Positions 3,482 to 12,051 of a stretch of 38,956 nucleotides of DNA are shown here, one piece after another. This stretch comes from Candidatus Cloacimonadota bacterium (GTDB taxonomy: Bacteria > Cloacimonadota > Cloacimonadia > Cloacimonadales > Cloacimonadaceae): the NCBI GenBank assembly GCA_027318475.1, contig DAHVPC010000007.1, forward strand, positions 1 through 38,956. The letters run 5' to 3'. The first letter of the stretch is position 1. Every line of letters starts with the position of its first letter. Under the pieces are notes generated by a model that saw only the letters and a list, made by a program, of their open reading frames with translations, was not told the origin of the DNA and did not search any database. The position numbers and the translations under genes were made by a program.

Positions 3482-5233
3482 CTATTTCAAATGTTCGTGC
3501 AGGAAGTCGTGATATTCCTGGTTGTTGAAGACGAGTTCGTCGTGCGTGCCCTGATGCGCGCGCCCCTCTGAATCGATGAACAGCACGCGGTCCACGTAAT
3601 GCAGGGTGGAGAGGCGGTGCGAGATCACGATGGCCGCGATGCCGGGATAGTGGATGTTGATATCCTGCCAGAGTTTTTCCTCGTTCTCCGCGTCCAGTGA
3701 GGCGGTAATGTCGTCCAGGATCAGCAATTGCGGCCGTTTGATCAGAGCCCGGGCGATGGTCACGCGTTGTTTCTGCCCGCCGGAAACGCCCAAACCGCGC
3801 TGCCCGACTTTGGTCTGTTCCCGTTCCGGAAAAGCCGCGATCTCCTGCTCCAGTTGCGAGGCGCGCACCGCAGTCTGATATTCCTCATCCGTAGCCCCAT
3901 CCACCGCGAAAAGCACATTGTCCTTGATCGTCCCGGTAAACAGGACCGGATCTTGCGGCACATAGGCGATCAGGTCGCGCAGGTCATTCAGGTCGATCTT
4001 CTGAAGCGGTATGCCGTTGAAGGTGATCGCGCCTGAATCCGGCTGCAGCAGACCCAGCACGAGATTGGCGACCGTGCTCTTCCCCGCTCCGGTGGAACCA
4101 AGGATCAATAGACGTTCGCCCTTCCGCAGGTCGAAACTGCAATCCCGAATGGCAGGCTCGCTTTTGTCGGGATAAGTGCAGTCCACGTTCTCGAAGCGCA
4201 ATTCCTGCAGTTCCGCGGGCTTCTCGGTGCCGGACCAGGTGTCGTTGAAACTGGGGTAATCCTTCATGTCCTCCAGGCGGTCGATATTCACGAAGGCCTG
4301 TTTGCCGGAAACGAAGAGTTGCGGCAGGTCCAACAGCGGATAGATCATCATGCTGAGGTAGGAATAGAACATGTAGAAGGTGCCCACCGTGATCCTGCCT
4401 TTCACGGCCATATAACCGCCGAAGAGGATGACGCCGATCTGGGCGAAGTAGTCGATATACTCGTAGATCAGGTGCAGCACGGCATTGAGTTTCACCACGC
4501 TCATCTCGGTCTTGAAACGGCGCGCCAGCGCGGTATCGAAAAAGCGGTTGTACTTTTCCTCGCTGACGAAGGCTTTCACGATGCGGATGCCGGAGAAACT
4601 CATCTCCAACTGGTTGTTGATATTGCTGATCGCTTGCTGGTTGCGCTCGAAGTTCTTGTACAGCCGGTCCGAGGTGAAGTAGAAGACCACCATCATCAGC
4701 GGCAGCGGTGCCACCGAAAGCAAGGTCAGGCGAGGGCTGATGCCAAACATCACCACCAGCGAAAACATGATCAGGCTGAAGGAATTCAGCGCCCGGAAGA
4801 TCCCGGAGCAGAGGAACCAGCTGATCTTCGGGAAATCGCTGAGGTCGTCCGTAAGCCGCGTAACCACGTCGCCGGTGCGGTATTTCTGGAAAAAGCGGAA
4901 GTCCTTGGTGACCACGAAACGGAAGTAAAACATGCGCAGGAAGTGCTCGAAACGGATGTTCACCCAACCCCGGAAGGCAGGATAGAAACCGGTGACGAAC
5001 TGCGCGAAACCCAGTCCCAACAAGATCCAGATGATGCGGTTGACCTCGTCCATGGGGGCAGGATATTTGCCTGGATTGGAGAGGATGTTGCGCAGCAGGT
5101 CGATCAGCCTGCCAAACACGATGGGATGGGCGATGGAGACCGCCGAACTGCCCAAGGTGAAAAAGAGCATGATGATCAGGAACCATTTCTGGTGCGTCCA
5201 CTGGCGGATGATCCACTTAACGTGCTTATTCAC
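3482..5233 (-). CDS. ABC exporter half-transporter (TMD-NBD), subunit with degenerate Walker B (LILDD)
   Basis: 583 aa; Walker A GSTGAGKST, signature VSGGQKQR, Walker B LLILDDITAS, H-loop ISHRLST; overlaps the upstream ABC gene by 8 bp. Confidence 0.95.
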   Translation of the reverse strand: MNKHVKWIIRQWTHQKWFLIIMLFFTLGSSAVSIAHPIVFGRLIDLLRNILSNPGKYPAPMDEVNRIIWILLGLGFAQFVTGFYPAFRGWVNIRFEHFLRMFYFRFVVTKDFRFFQKYRTGDVVTRLTDDLSDFPKISWFLCSGIFRALNSFSLIMFSLVVMFGISPRLTLLSVAPLPLMMVVFYFTSDRLYKNFERNQQAISNINNQLEMSFSGIRIVKAFVSEEKYNRFFDTALARRFKTEMSVVKLNAVLHLIYEYIDYFAQIGVILFGGYMAVKGRITVGTFYMFYSYLSMMIYPLLDLPQLFVSGKQAFVNIDRLEDMKDYPSFNDTWSGTEKPAELQELRFENVDCTYPDKSEPAIRDCSFDLRKGERLLILGSTGAGKSTVANLVLGLLQPDSGAITFNGIPLQKIDLNDLRDLIAYVPQDPVLFTGTIKDNVLFAVDGATDEEYQTAVRASQLEQEIAAFPEREQTKVGQRGLGVSGGQKQRVTIARALIKRPQLLILDDITASLDAENEEKLWQDINIHYPGIAAIVISHRLSTLHYVDRVLFIDSEGRAHQGTHDELVFNNQEYHDFLHEHLK

Positions 5234-7016
5234 CGTTCCGCTCCGTAGCGATCAGCTGGAGTTCCACAAGTTTGCGGTACTCGGCGGAAAGCTCCATCAA
5301 TTGGGTGTGCGTGCCGCGATGGATGATCTCGCCATCCTGGTAAAAGAGGATCTCGTCGGCGTCCAGCACCGAAGTCAGCCGGTGCGCCACCACCACCGCC
5401 GTTTTATCGGAAAACACGGTGTGCATGCTGCGCTGGATCTTGGCCTCGGTTTGCGGATCGATGGAGGCGGTCGCCTCGTCCATGATGATCAGTTCCGCCT
5501 CGAAAGCCAGAGCCCGGGCGAAGCTGATCAATTGCTTCTCGCCTTGGGAAACGTTCTGTCCGCGCTCCGCCAATTCGCTGTCCAGGCCAAGGTTCTGGCC
5601 CTGGATAAACTCGTCCAGTTGCACGATGTTGATCGCTTCCTGCACTTTTTGCACCGGCACCGTGTCGTTGTAAACGCGCACGTTTTCCAGAATGCTGCCC
5701 GGGAAGAGGAAGATGTCCTGTAAAATCAGCCCGATCTTGCGGCGCCAGGCGCGGAACTCGATCTCGTCGAGTGGCACGCCGTCGATCAGGATGCGACCTT
5801 TCTGGATGGGATAGAAGCCGCAGAGCAAGCTCACCGTGGTGGTCTTGCCGCTGCCCGAAGCTCCGACCAGAGCGATTTTGGCGCCCTTGGGTATGGTGAA
5901 GGAAACGTCCTTGAGGATCCAGTCCTCGTCCTTGTAAGCGAACCACACGTGGTCGAAGCGGATTTCGTGTTCGAAAGAGGGAATTTTGGTGCCGGTGAAG
6001 ATCTCTTCCTCGGAGCCCAGTTCCGTGAGTTCCAATATGCGTTTCAGGGACACGAAAGCCCGCTGGATCTGCATCACGTTTTCCGAGATCTGCATCAGCG
6101 GCCACATCATGCGGAAGATGTAGTCCACAAACACGATCAGCGTGCCCAGGGTCACCGCTCCGGCGATGATCCGCGGCGCCATCATGCGGATGATCAGCAC
6201 CAGGAACAGCACCTCGAAAAACAGCATGAACACGCTTTGTGAGCCATACTCCAGAAACGAAGTGCGCGTCTCCAGGCGGTATTTATCGGCCGAAGCCTGT
6301 TTCAGGTCTTCATACACCCGCTCCTGCCGGTTCAATGCCTGGATGATCTGCATGCCCTGCACGTAGTCGGTAATCTTGGCGCTGAGCAGCGCGTATTTTT
6401 CCCGGATCAGCCGGTAAAACTTGGAAAGGTATTTGATCAGGAAATAGTAGCCCACGATCGCTACGCCCATGAGGGGAAAAATGTAGGCTGCCACGCGCCA
6501 TTCGCGCACGAACATGACGATGAACACCCCGATGAAGAACAGCACATTGCCGATGATGCGGATGGACAGCTCGGAAAACAGCGCTTTCACGCGCTCGCTG
6601 TCGCTTTCCACGCGGGCGATCAGTTCGCCCACCTGCCTCTGGTTGAACCAGTCCACGGGCAGGGTCAAAAGGTGGCGGAAGACCTTGGCCTTGAAGTTGG
6701 TGATGATTTTGATGCCCAGGCGCGAAAGCAGCACGATCTGCAGATAGGAGAGCAGGCCCGAAACCACCACCACGCCGATGAACAGCAAGCCGTACTGGTA
6801 CATCAGCGCGACGTTGCCGCTGGGTATGCTCTTGTCCACGATCGCCGCCAGGATCAGGGGATAGATCAGCTGCAGCGAGGAAGTGAGCAGCATCGCGAAC
6901 AGCCCGAAGCCGAGCAGGCCCAAGTCCTTTTTTACATAGGGAAAAAGGAGCTTGAGATAGAAAAGGGTGCTTTGCTTGCGTTCGGACATTGGCTTCCTTG
7001 TCGAATATAAAAACAA
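5226..7016 (-). CDS. ABC exporter half-transporter (TMD-NBD), subunit with canonical Walker B
   Basis: 596 aa; Walker A GASGSGKTT, signature VSQGEKQ, Walker B LIIMDEATAS, H-loop VAHRLTS. Confidence 0.95.
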   Translation of the reverse strand: MFLYSTRKPMSERKQSTLFYLKLLFPYVKKDLGLLGFGLFAMLLTSSLQLIYPLILAAIVDKSIPSGNVALMYQYGLLFIGVVVVSGLLSYLQIVLLSRLGIKIITNFKAKVFRHLLTLPVDWFNQRQVGELIARVESDSERVKALFSELSIRIIGNVLFFIGVFIVMFVREWRVAAYIFPLMGVAIVGYYFLIKYLSKFYRLIREKYALLSAKITDYVQGMQIIQALNRQERVYEDLKQASADKYRLETRTSFLEYGSQSVFMLFFEVLFLVLIIRMMAPRIIAGAVTLGTLIVFVDYIFRMMWPLMQISENVMQIQRAFVSLKRILELTELGSEEEIFTGTKIPSFEHEIRFDHVWFAYKDEDWILKDVSFTIPKGAKIALVGASGSGKTTTVSLLCGFYPIQKGRILIDGVPLDEIEFRAWRRKIGLILQDIFLFPGSILENVRVYNDTVPVQKVQEAINIVQLDEFIQGQNLGLDSELAERGQNVSQGEKQLISFARALAFEAELIIMDEATASIDPQTEAKIQRSMHTVFSDKTAVVVAHRLTSVLDADEILFYQDGEIIHRGTHTQLMELSAEYRKLVELQLIATERNGE

Positions 7017-7139: not shown

Positions 7140-8591
7140 TTATTCTTTACCGATAGCCTTGAGCAGGCGCTCCGCCTCCTCCGCGGTGATTTTGCCGGCT
7201 TCCAGCATTTCCAGGATCTTGATCCGGCTGCGTTCGTCGACCTCACTCTTTTCGCGGCTGCTCATTCCTTTGCCAGCTTTGCCGAAAGCCGATTCCATGG
7301 TTTTGTGCACATAGTCCTTGATGGACTCGGGATCAAAGAATTCGTGGTGGAACTCGAAACCCTTGCCGCCAAAGGGTCCGCGGAATTGCGCACGTTGCTC
7401 GCGAAACCGGGATTCGCCATCGCGGAAGGGGCCTTTCACCTTGCGGAAGATCTCTTTCAGGCCGTCGGCCAGCTCATCGCCCGCTTGTTCGACCACTTTG
7501 ATGACTTTGTCCTTGGTTTCCTGGACCTCAAACTCCTCGACCGCGGTCTTGAGCTTGGCGAGCGAAGCGGCGAGTTTTTCCTGGATATTGGTTTCAGCCA
7601 CGCTGTTGATGGCGCGTTCGATCGCCGCGGTGACTTTTTCCAGCGCCCTGAGCGCTTTTTCCTTGTCCTCTTCGCTCACGGACTTGCCGATCTGTTCTTT
7701 CAATTCCGCCAGTTTGAGGCTGATGAAACCAAATTCTGCCTTGCCTCCGGAACTGATCTTCACCGCTCCGTTTTCCGTACGGACGCTGATCCTGGCGCCG
7801 CCTTCGCCGCGACGGACGATTCTGCGGCCGCCTTCAGTAATGACCTCGGCATCGAGGTTGGCGGTCACGGAACCGTTTTCGGTCTCGGCCTGCAGTTCAA
7901 ACGCGAAATCTTCCGGCACGGACAGATGGATGCGGCCGTTTTCGCTGCTGAAACTGAACTCCCCGTTTTCCACAGGCAGGGTTTCGTAATAGATCAGGCC
8001 GTTTTCGGTGCTGATGTTCACCAGCGGAAAGGCTGCCTGGCGGATCTTGAGGGGGCTGTTCTCAGATTCCACCTCGAGTTTGCTGCCGCTGACCTTTTCC
8101 GCCACCAAGGGCCCGTTTTCCAGATCGATCTCAAATTCGCCGCTGCATTCGCGCAAACTGATCGGGCCGTTTTCCGCCTCGATGTGCGTATGGCCGGAGC
8201 ATTTCTCCAGCGAGACCGGGCCGTTTTCGTTGTGGATCACCAGAGGGCATTCCAGGCCTTGCACACTTAGCGGCCGCACTTCGGATGTCGCCACCACCAT
8301 GAGCTGTTGCGGAACGCGGATCTGCACCAGCGAACCGCGGCTCCCGGCCCATGATTCCGCCAGATGCGGAATTTCGTCCAGGACGATGGAAACCGTCTTT
8401 TCAAAGAGATTCACGTTGAAATATTCGGCGGTGTCGGTGCCGGAGACGAAAGAATGCAGGTTCAGTTCCGCCTCGATCTCGAACTGCCCGGTTTCTGAAG
8501 GGCTGATGAGCACTGGCGCCATGTGGTTTTCGATCTCCACCTTTTCCGCGCCGGTGAAGTCGTAGTTCAGGTTTATCTTGGCTGTTTTCAT
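7140..8591 (-). CDS. DUF4097-like beta-helical 'ENG-ladder' protein with C-terminal SHOCT-like helical motif
   Basis: 483 aa; repeated (I/L)..ENGP(V/I/L) motifs at roughly 20-aa spacing; C-term RSRIKILEMLEAGKITAEEAERLLKAIG. Confidence 0.8.
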   Translation of the reverse strand: MKTAKINLNYDFTGAEKVEIENHMAPVLISPSETGQFEIEAELNLHSFVSGTDTAEYFNVNLFEKTVSIVLDEIPHLAESWAGSRGSLVQIRVPQQLMVVATSEVRPLSVQGLECPLVIHNENGPVSLEKCSGHTHIEAENGPISLRECSGEFEIDLENGPLVAEKVSGSKLEVESENSPLKIRQAAFPLVNISTENGLIYYETLPVENGEFSFSSENGRIHLSVPEDFAFELQAETENGSVTANLDAEVITEGGRRIVRRGEGGARISVRTENGAVKISSGGKAEFGFISLKLAELKEQIGKSVSEEDKEKALRALEKVTAAIERAINSVAETNIQEKLAASLAKLKTAVEEFEVQETKDKVIKVVEQAGDELADGLKEIFRKVKGPFRDGESRFREQRAQFRGPFGGKGFEFHHEFFDPESIKDYVHKTMESAFGKAGKGMSSREKSEVDERSRIKILEMLEAGKITAEEAERLLKAIGKE

Positions 8592-8953
8592 GATTTCCTC
8601 CTTGTGTCAATCATGTTGATGGCTTCCTCCACGGATATGAAGCCCTGCTCCAGATCGCTGAAGATATCGCTGAAATCAGTGGGGGAAGGCTCTTCCCTGG
8701 CGATCACCTTGATGATTTCCGCCAGACGGTTTTTTACGGTTGGATAGGAGATGCCGAGGCGCTTTTCCATCTCTTTGATGTTGCCGCCCACGGTGATGAA
8801 CAAACGTATAAACTCCAGCTGCGCCGGCTTCAAACCGGTCAGCCAGCTGTTGGTGAAGGTCCCCGTGAATCCCACTTCGCAGGCTGGGCAATAGAGTTCC
8901 CGGATCACCAGTTCCTTCTTGCAGATCGGGCAGGATGTCAATTCCATGATCAT
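8588..8953 (-). CDS. DUF2089 family protein (zinc ribbon plus HTH), probable regulator
   Basis: 121 aa; CPICKKELVIRELYCPACEVGFTG then HTH-like MEKRLGISYPTVKNRLAEI; overlaps the downstream ENG-ladder gene by 4 bp (ATGA type). Confidence 0.88.
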   Translation of the reverse strand: MIMELTSCPICKKELVIRELYCPACEVGFTGTFTNSWLTGLKPAQLEFIRLFITVGGNIKEMEKRLGISYPTVKNRLAEIIKVIAREEPSPTDFSDIFSDLEQGFISVEEAINMIDTRRKS

Positions 8954-9075: not shown

Positions 9076-9156
9076 GCCTTAATCAAGCCTTAATCAAGCC
9101 TTAATCAAGCGTTAATAATAGACACTTGATTAAGGCTTGATTAAGAAGTGATTGAC
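9076..9156. repeat. Hairpin repeat of TTAATCAAGCC units, copy 2
   Basis: GCCTTAATCAAGCCTTAATCAAGCCTTAATCAAGCGTTAA, then CTTGATTAAGGCTTGATTAAGAAGTGATTGAC; same 40-nt arm layout as copies 1 and 3. Confidence 0.9.
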
Positions 9157-9202
9157 AGGAATCCGCCAGCTGGAAGGATGGAATCCCAGAAAGGAGTTCA
9201 CT

Positions 9203-9646
9203 ATGAAAGTAACTGTAAAAGATGGAATCAAGGGCTTTTCGGGCCGTCTCGACGGAGCGATTTACTATTATCATCCGCGCCTGAAGCGCACCCTGATGCG
9301 CCGCCAGCCAAAAATGCCAGCCCAGCCGCAAAACGCGGACTACGCCACGATCGCCCAGCGGATCAAGGCTTTAAACCCCTCGTCCGCCTACCGCTACGAT
9401 TTCAAGATCTACCTCAGCACCTTGCGCGATCATGACGACCAGGTGACCTATCCCTCCTGGTACAGCCTGTTCGTGAAAATGCTCTGGGCGCTGCAAGCCA
9501 AATACCCCTCTCAGGTGGATCTGAAAACGCTGACCCGGTCGCAGATTATCCAGCAGGAACTGCCTTGCGTATCGGTCAGGGACGCGGTCGAGAATGGCCT
9601 GCTGCCCATGGTCCCCGGCATCGAATATCTGGATCATCAGATCTAA
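9203..9646 (+). CDS. Conserved-looking hypothetical protein
   Basis: 147 aa from ATG at 9203 preceded by AAAGGAG; MKVTVKDGIKGFSGRLDGAIYYYHPRLKRTLMRR... Confidence 0.75.
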   Translation: MKVTVKDGIKGFSGRLDGAIYYYHPRLKRTLMRRQPKMPAQPQNADYATIAQRIKALNPSSAYRYDFKIYLSTLRDHDDQVTYPSWYSLFVKMLWALQAKYPSQVDLKTLTRSQIIQQELPCVSVRDAVENGLLPMVPGIEYLDHQI

Positions 9647-9789: not shown

Positions 9790-9818
9790 GTCCCAACACT
9801 TTGACCACTCTGAACGTT
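9790..9818 (+). promoter_or_regulatory. Putative ECF sigma promoter upstream of the sigma gene
   Basis: GTCCCAACACTT-N12-ACGTT; AAC to CGT spacing of 17 fits known ECF promoters; same motif and spacing at 11807-11835. Confidence 0.65.
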
Positions 9819-9848: not shown

Positions 9849-10337
9849 ATGATCGATCTGGAAGAATTCGTCAGTACGCATGAACGGCCGTTGCACAATT
9901 TCGCGCTGCAGCTTACCAAGTCCGAAGACGAAGCGGATGATCTGGTCCAGGACACCTGGCTCAAGTGCATGGTCCAGCAGCAGTTGCTGGTGTCTCTAAC
10001 GGTCCCGAAACAGCGCAGCTGGCTGTTCACGGTGCTCAAGAACCGCTGGCTGGACATCTGCCGGCACCGGAAGCTGGAACGGACCCTGGAGCTGAGCAAC
10101 GAGCCAATCGCTCCGGCAGTTACGCCAGTGTACCGGTTGGACGAACATCTGGACAAGCTGCCCGCCCTGGAAAAAGAAATAGTCCGGCTCAGGTTCTGGT
10201 CGGAATTCAACAGCCGCCAGATCGCCGAAGAATTGGGAATCCCCGAAGGCACGGTGCGCTGGCGCTTGAAATCGGCAATGGATAAACTAAGAAGATATAT
10301 GGAAAAGAGTGATAAGGAGGAACGATGTCAACTCTGA
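9849..10337 (+). CDS. ECF-type RNA polymerase sigma factor
   Basis: 162 aa; region 2 'EDEADDLVQDTWLKC...RSWLFTVLKNRWLDICR', region 4 'LPALEKEIVRLRFWSEFNSRQIAEELGIPEGTVRWRLKSAMDKLR'. Confidence 0.95.
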   Translation: MIDLEEFVSTHERPLHNFALQLTKSEDEADDLVQDTWLKCMVQQQLLVSLTVPKQRSWLFTVLKNRWLDICRHRKLERTLELSNEPIAPAVTPVYRLDEHLDKLPALEKEIVRLRFWSEFNSRQIAEELGIPEGTVRWRLKSAMDKLRRYMEKSDKEERCQL

Positions 10338-11539
10338 TCAAAAACGTCGGCATCCTGGATGCCCGCAAAGCCTCACCTGAACAGCTCCGCGAGATCGGCA
10401 AGGTCGTAAATGTCGGTTGCCTGGTGATCCATCCGGGATTAAAAGCGGAATTACTGAAAATCAACCTGCAAGACGTGGGCAAGATGCTGGAACTGGACGA
10501 CGATTACCGTTTGCACACAGGCCCGTTGGAGATCTCGCGGCAAATGCTGGAGGACACCCAGGACAGCCTGAAACTGTGCGTGGTAGGGCCTCTCAGCCTG
10601 GAGCCCGATATAACAGTCGAGCTGCTGCAAGAGAAGCTTAGCGGTTTATGTTTGATCGGGCCGGCCTCAGTTCCGGAACACCTTTACGGTACTTTCATGA
10701 GCGTTGCCCGGGATATCGTGGGACCGGTTTCCCCCCTGAAATACGCCGGACTCAGAGCCGCGGGCAAGATCCTGATCACCGACACCTATCTTAACGGCCT
10801 GGAGGACGGGGCGGAACTTACTGTGGCTGGCAATGTTACCTTCGCGGAGGAGGTTGACGCCGAACTTTTCGCCCGCAAGATCAGCAAACTGCAGGTGGTG
10901 GGAGCGATCAAATGCCTGGACACGCAGGAGGAGATGCTGCACAAAGTACTCACCGCCAACAGCGTAGCCAAGATCAAGATCATCCGGGTGGACTTTCATT
11001 ACGTGCCCGGCGGCACCATGCTGGACACCTTCACCATCATGACTGTGAACAAACAGACCGTTTCCTGCCCGGGCTTGCTGATCCTGGACGAAGAGGTGAC
11101 GCCTGAACTGATCAAGGAAAAAGACATTCATTTTGAAGCTGGCACCCTCTACTTCCCGAAATCGGTGATGCGGGAAATGTCTTCCCGCCTGGCTCCCAAA
11201 ACCAAAGGCATACCCTTTGAGCCGGGGAAATTGGAACTGGTGGCCAGCCAGCAATGCATGACCCAAGTCCGCCTGGAAACTATGCCGGATAAGGTCACCC
11301 TGGTTGTCAGCGGCGAACTGACCATCGGCGAGGAAGTCAGCATCGAACAGCTTTCCGCCAAGATCGGCGTTCTGGACAACTATGGCGAGATCATCGCTTC
11401 GCGTGACCAGGCCAGCATCCTGCAAAGCAAGCTGCGCCACGACGAAGGCAGCGTGGTGATCTCAGGCGAAGAGGACGACGACGAGGACCACGCCAAGTAC
11501 GACAACGTGATCGAGAACCTCGCGACCTACGTCTTGTGA
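10325..11539 (+). CDS. Repeat-containing protein of unknown function coupled to the ECF sigma factor
   Basis: 404 aa; start inside the sigma gene (13-bp overlap) after AAGGAGG; no signal peptide or TM stretch apparent; degenerate ~60-aa units such as 'G.L.I...V..E.L..KI..L.V.G.I'; acidic tail GEEDDDEDHAKYD. Confidence 0.85.
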   Translation: MSTLIKNVGILDARKASPEQLREIGKVVNVGCLVIHPGLKAELLKINLQDVGKMLELDDDYRLHTGPLEISRQMLEDTQDSLKLCVVGPLSLEPDITVELLQEKLSGLCLIGPASVPEHLYGTFMSVARDIVGPVSPLKYAGLRAAGKILITDTYLNGLEDGAELTVAGNVTFAEEVDAELFARKISKLQVVGAIKCLDTQEEMLHKVLTANSVAKIKIIRVDFHYVPGGTMLDTFTIMTVNKQTVSCPGLLILDEEVTPELIKEKDIHFEAGTLYFPKSVMREMSSRLAPKTKGIPFEPGKLELVASQQCMTQVRLETMPDKVTLVVSGELTIGEEVSIEQLSAKIGVLDNYGEIIASRDQASILQSKLRHDEGSVVISGEEDDDEDHAKYDNVIENLATYVL

Positions 11540-11569
11540 TTCTTTAAGCAGTTGTTATCGTTTAAGTTG

Positions 11570-11595
11570 AGCCCTGCAAACGCGGGGCTTTTTTT
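11570..11595 (+). terminator. Rho-independent terminator
   Basis: AGCCCTG-CAAACG-CGGGGCT followed by TTTTTT. Confidence 0.85.
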
Positions 11596-11806: not shown

Positions 11807-11835
11807 GTCCCAACACTTGCAGACACTCATACGTT
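11807..11835 (+). promoter_or_regulatory. Second putative ECF sigma promoter, same motif as 9790-9818
   Basis: GTCCCAACACTT-N12-ACGTT, preceded by AAAAAT as in the first copy. Confidence 0.65.
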
Positions 11836-11868: not shown

Positions 11869-12051
11869 ATGACGAACATCAACAGGACCCCGCAGCAAGC
11901 CATGGCCTCCAACGCCAAAAAGGCGGACGATGATCTGCAGCCCTGCACTCTGAGGGAATCAAACGGTCCTCAAGTGGCTGACCTGCATATCTTGAGTGTC
12001 TGGAACGAGCATCGCGCCCGCCTGAACAGAACCCAAGTGCATTTGTTGTAG
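11869..12051 (+). CDS. Small ORF (60 aa) downstream of the putative ECF promoter
   Basis: ATG at 11869 preceded by GGGAGG; MTNINRTPQQAMASNAKKADDDLQPCTLRESNGPQVADLHILSVWNEHRARLNRTQVHLL. Confidence 0.45.
   Translation: MTNINRTPQQAMASNAKKADDDLQPCTLRESNGPQVADLHILSVWNEHRARLNRTQVHLL

Follow-up and report, generated by a model that had tools for sequence, protein, structure and literature searches.

A conserved pair of an ECF sigma factor and a soluble solenoid repeat protein with a predicted small-protein regulon in Cloacimonadota

Gene organisation of the locus

The window, namely the whole analysed stretch of 38,956 nucleotides from a Candidatus Cloacimonadota bacterium, carries an ECF sigma factor gene directly followed by a gene for a 404-aa repeat protein. 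Its closest named relative is L002, likewise from Candidatus Cloacimonadota. The following features were assigned:

9793..9818, + strand: predicted ECF-type autoregulatory promoter CCAACACTT-N13-CGTT, exact match, 56 nt from the start of the -35 element to the sigma ATG
9849..10337, + strand: ECF sigma gene, 162 aa, with Pfam Sigma70_r2 and r4 and TIGR02937
10314..10327, + strand: start region of the repeat gene within the sigma ORF, with the Shine-Dalgarno sequence AAGGAGG and the ATG
10325..11539, + strand: solenoid repeat gene, 404 aa, probable regulator of sigma according to repeat analysis and homologues
11569..11590, + strand: terminator-like hairpin with T run 3' of the repeat gene, closing the two-gene operon
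11810..11835, + strand: second exact copy of CCAACACTT-N13-CGTT, 59 nt 5' of the ATG of a small protein
11869..12051, + strand: ORF behind the second promoter copy, coding for a previously unreported small protein of 60 aa (MTNINRTPQQ...LHILSVWNEHRARLNRTQVHLL)

The sigma factor consists of sigma-2 and sigma-4 domains only, as is characteristic of ECF sigma factors (group IV of the sigma-70 family). The ORF coordinates (9849-10337 and 10325-11539) confirmed the 13-bp overlap of the two genes given in the preliminary description, and AAGGAGG is indeed located inside the sigma ORF just 5' of the ATG of the repeat gene. The two ORFs do not form one continuous reading frame. The translational coupling deduced from this arrangement holds within the genus, where five out of six loci have a spacing of -13 and the sixth has -17, but the spacing varies from -20 to +220 in other lineages. 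Coupling is thus a local feature and only the adjacency of the two genes is general. The two promoter copies and the small ORF behind the second one were absent from the earlier reading of the window.

An ORF for 164 aa of unknown function (9152-9646, +) is located just 5' of the sigma promoter with a terminator-like hairpin in between. Further upstream, a DUF2089 zinc-ribbon HTH gene (8588-8953, -) is followed with a 4-bp overlap by a DUF4097 toastrack gene (7140-8591, -), whose product has a SHOCT-like DUF2089-C tail. Two adjoining, overlapping ORFs (3482-5233 and 5226-7016, both -) resemble a two-subunit ABC exporter.

Architecture of the repeat protein

The repeat protein was previously described as a series of degenerate units of approx. 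60 aa. The repeats are real, but their length is approx. 81 aa. Column autocorrelation of 12 homologues peaked at 81 aa (and at 161), and the value at lag 81 exceeded all 500 column shuffles. The protein is composed of a partial unit (aa 1-59), four units (aa 60-140, 141-221, 222-302 and 303-383), an acidic tail, which had been noticed before and is present, and a conserved C-terminal cap. Units 1 to 4 matched each other in hhalign with E-values between 9e-9 and 3e-17, while the N-terminal partial unit matched unit 1 with E = 3e-4.

Structure prediction of the 404-aa chain alone yielded a β-α solenoid with three coils per unit of approx. 81 aa and helix triplets spaced by approx. 26, 20 and 35 residues. 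The two AlphaFold single-chain models reached a pLDDT of 84.0 (9 sequences) and 85.4 (18 sequences), but a pTM of only 0.45 and 0.56; therefore, the local structure is credible and the overall curvature is not. No fold-search match was found at E ≤ 0.001 and no solved structure fits. The weak top matches were LRR or L-domain-like solenoids, and PF01030 was matched in one solenoid member only with E = 0.04. The suggested bactofilin-like or assembling scaffold gained no support, as neither a bactofilin nor a known solenoid fold was matched significantly by sequence or fold.

None of the 16 members of the family contains an HxxxCxxC motif or a hydrophobic segment; the maximum hydropathy over 19 residues was 1.71 in any member and 1.09 in the window protein. 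Neither an anti-sigma domain or ZAS motif nor a membrane-spanning segment was detected, in agreement with the preliminary view that this soluble protein is not a transmembrane anti-sigma factor, zinc-finger anti-sigma factor or lipoprotein. With a pI of 4.8, the solenoid is acidic. It matched no NCBIfam model and no anti-sigma Pfam family, and was hit marginally in PHROGs and not at all in PADLOC. An Rfam search found nothing.

Relationship to known families

The sole Pfam match of the 404-aa protein was a weak one to RHH_8 (PF17723), outside the DNA-binding part of that family. RHH_8 comprises CopG-type regulators of Alpha- and Betaproteobacteria and Paenibacillus, whose C-terminal β-α unit is recognisable in the solenoid: the C-terminal approx. 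70 aa of RHH_8 aligned in register with one solenoid unit (hhalign probability 87%, E = 4e-6), and L008 scored 40.7 bits against PF17723 at a cut-off of 25.4. On the RHH_8 profile, the window protein covers positions 64-114 and L008 27-117, and none spans the whole ribbon-helix-helix region (approx. 3-45). As this DNA-binding domain is missing, the window protein is not a member of RHH_8. While RHH_8 proteins combine the DNA-binding part with one unit, the solenoid has four or more units, and unlike the solenoid genes, the RHH_8 genes examined had no sigma gene among their annotated neighbours. The C-terminal unit of RHH_8/CopG proteins is the closest sequence relative found, and the two families likely have this module in common.

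LRR and receptor L-domain solenoids, the weak best fold matches, likewise consist of coiled β-α repeats; they differ by the solenoid's unit of approx. 81 aa with three coils and by the lack of a match at E ≤ 0.001. Known ECF sigma factors with soluble partners, such as the Asp23 type of ECF286/292, resemble the present system in the co-encoded soluble partner of a two-domain ECF, the predicted autoregulation and the AAC/CGT promoter (PMC8999054). Unlike these soluble partners, the protein is a 404-aa solenoid without homology to zinc anti-sigma factors, cupins, Asp23 or NepR.

Distribution and linkage of sigma and solenoid

Relatives of the solenoid span three phylum-level groups. They were found in 10 out of 125 Cloacimonadota genomes (one of them, G047, with a C-terminal fragment only), in 3/40 genomes of the phylum of G377 and in 10/16 genomes of the phylum of G234, one of these with a degenerate copy. 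A further domain-wide genome sample contained no additional carriers, and no match was obtained in plasmids with the window solenoid or in phages with L008. In G433 (L036, L037), the solenoid gene is degenerate and in fragments. A frameshift at eight consecutive A interrupts the sigma ORF of G386 (L046), possibly as a result of an assembly error.

The sigma gene is located immediately 5' of the solenoid gene in every intact locus that was checked, across all three groups, and no other neighbour gene is conserved around the pair. In G377 (L021), a GIN/DUF2807-type toastrack-like protein with N-terminal TM segments is encoded after the solenoid (546-1427, -). Nine out of 61 Cloacimonadota genomes contained both the sigma subfamily and the solenoid, and none contained just one of them; given that the sigma profile was built from these same carriers, this means that no other of the 61 genomes has a close copy of the sigma factor. 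Pairwise distances of sigma and solenoid correlated with r = 0.985 over 16 loci, a value that common descent by itself could yield. On this sequence basis, sigma and solenoid are co-encoded and inherited as a unit. The neighbourhood survey thereby bears out the proposed conserved sigma-repeat pair: the linkage persists in relatives, and apart from the weak single-unit match to the C-terminus of RHH_8, no homology to a characterised family emerged. A cytoplasmic solenoid partnering sigma, as envisaged before, fits the reciprocal linkage, the lack of TM segments and the modelled β-α solenoid.

Within the genus, the mean identity was 58% for the solenoid and 64% for sigma. Anti-sigma factors usually diverge much faster than their sigma factors. 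The slow divergence of the solenoid consequently counts against a standard anti-sigma factor and makes a sensor or a co-factor plausible. As a co-factor, the solenoid would be an activator or chaperone required for the folding of sigma or its loading onto core RNA polymerase, which is in line with the perfect reciprocal linkage and with the start overlap that gives matched production of both proteins. Yet positive obligate co-factors are rare among ECF sigma factors and most adjacent, co-transcribed partners inhibit, so this role is considered doubtful.

Promoter motif and predicted regulon

The motif CCAACACTT-N13-CGTT occurred twice in the window compared to 0.11 expected matches, and none of 100 shuffles reached two. 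It was present 5' of sigma in G377 and in all Cloacimonadota loci examined, some of which carry one substitution; it was diverged in G420 and G386. Near the locus of the G234 group, no copy of this promoter and no member of the small-protein family were detected. ECF sigma factors typically activate their own transcription, use AAC/CGT promoters and are co-transcribed with an anti-sigma factor (PMC8103513). With its AAC-type -35 and CGT-type -10 elements 5' of the sigma factor's own operon, the predicted promoter corresponds to this pattern at the level of the motif. Exact matches in G009 and G011, which lack the system, were dismissed because no downstream ORF of ≥35 aa starts there.

A scan of the six genomes of this genus that carry the system, allowing ≤1 mismatch, yielded 39 sites, of which six precede sigma, ten precede genes of the small-protein family and 23 lie inside long ORFs. 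All intergenic matches are therefore located before sigma or a small-protein gene, and the detectable regulon is made up of the sigma operon and the small proteins; weaker promoters would escape at this threshold. Judged by the promoter sequence, the targets of sigma thus seem to be limited to its own genes and the family of proteins of approx. 60 residues. Two of the ten small-protein genes (G000 C111 and G010 C160, both with the promoter) were also reached independently by a protein profile with E-values of 4e-9 and 1e-8. Profile matches in frames of approx. 1360 aa (E = 0.02-0.4) were rejected as chance; by eye, we take these frames to resemble pyruvate phosphate dikinase and not RNA polymerase.

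Homologues of the small protein were found at ten places in six genomes, each behind the promoter. They comprise 47-64 aa with a variable N-terminus, as in the window protein, and a conserved basic C-terminus with the pattern IL..W..(H/R)...L....LHLL. The pI is 8-12 for the full-length proteins and 9-12 for the C-terminal 24 aa. Several paralogues are scattered across the genome. In six genomes with the sigma-solenoid pair (G037, G039, G053, G377, G420 and G386), no homologue of the small protein was detected. A methyltransferase gene and a gene for a 51-aa membrane peptide have this promoter at their 5' side in G386, so outputs may vary among lineages.

The opposite charges of the small proteins and the solenoid would also suit partner switching, in which the role of the anti-sigma factor falls to the small basic protein, and its capture by the acidic solenoid frees sigma. 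Both are predicted to be under the same promoter, like the parts of the PhyR/NepR/EcfG system (PMC8103513), NepR is similarly small and soluble, and the high conservation of the solenoid would fit as well. However, complementary charges carry little weight as evidence, the six pair-bearing genomes mentioned above show that the small protein is not a core part, and scattered paralogues are expected of outputs. Partner switching is hence regarded as improbable. The solenoid could itself be an output, i.e. a product of the regulon with a structural or effector function and no regulatory effect on sigma, given that it belongs to a predicted autoregulated operon and that solenoids often serve as scaffolds. 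If the solenoid were just an output, one would expect it to be replaced in some lineages, whereas it is the one constant partner in three phylum-level groups while the predicted outputs differ, which renders this explanation unlikely.

Proposed sigma factor circuit

Its position and its linkage to sigma make the solenoid the best candidate for the regulator of sigma, and inhibition is the commonest role of such partners. Most likely, although with roughly even confidence, it would act as a soluble anti-sigma factor of a non-canonical kind or as a sensor. The locus would accordingly represent a stand-alone cytoplasmic ECF sigma circuit, a reading that has about an even chance of being right. 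Sigma would recognise the CCAACACTT-N13-CGTT promoter and thereby activate itself, its solenoid partner and the small proteins. The acidic solenoid would bind sigma and keep it inactive despite the missing anti-sigma domain, until a cytoplasmic signal or ligand acting on the solenoid frees it. Since sigma would drive the synthesis of its own inhibitor, a self-limiting pulse is expected with the small basic protein(s) as output.

The invariable position of sigma 5' of the solenoid, their joint occurrence with no other conserved neighbour, the correlated distances, the 16/39 promoter sites before sigma or small-protein genes (the others being inside long ORFs) and the two profile-detected genes with promoter argue for the proposed circuit. 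In addition, several unrelated kinds of soluble anti-sigma factors are listed in the literature, and the Asp23 family partners of ECF286/292 were proposed to act as such (PMC8999054). Against it stand the lacking anti-sigma domain and zinc motif, a conservation almost as high as that of sigma, and the G234 group with neither promoter nor small protein found near the locus. More tentatively, the solenoid might define a new class of soluble sigma regulators built of three-coil units of approx. 81 aa, a single one of which is common with RHH_8 regulators. It would possibly control a closed three-part circuit in which sigma puts out only its own operon and multiplying basic proteins of approx. 60 aa, perhaps feeding back on the solenoid.

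A literature search found no paper on the sigma-solenoid pairing, and the self-contained circuit of sigma, solenoid and small protein has apparently not been described before. The anti-sigma factor is what identifies most ECF systems; in this conserved pair, its place is taken by a solenoid that resembles no characterised regulator. The solenoid would add to the known soluble sigma regulators and offer a first way into the function of the repeat unit that RHH_8 regulators also contain. The predicted promoter and the very small predicted regulon are directly testable in a heterologous host.

The plasmid matches of L008 are RHH_8-type CopG proteins. On plasmids of Bradyrhizobium, Paracoccus and Cereibacter, RHH_8/CopG genes (L164, L166, L168) are located directly 5' of genes for PHB depolymerase family esterases.
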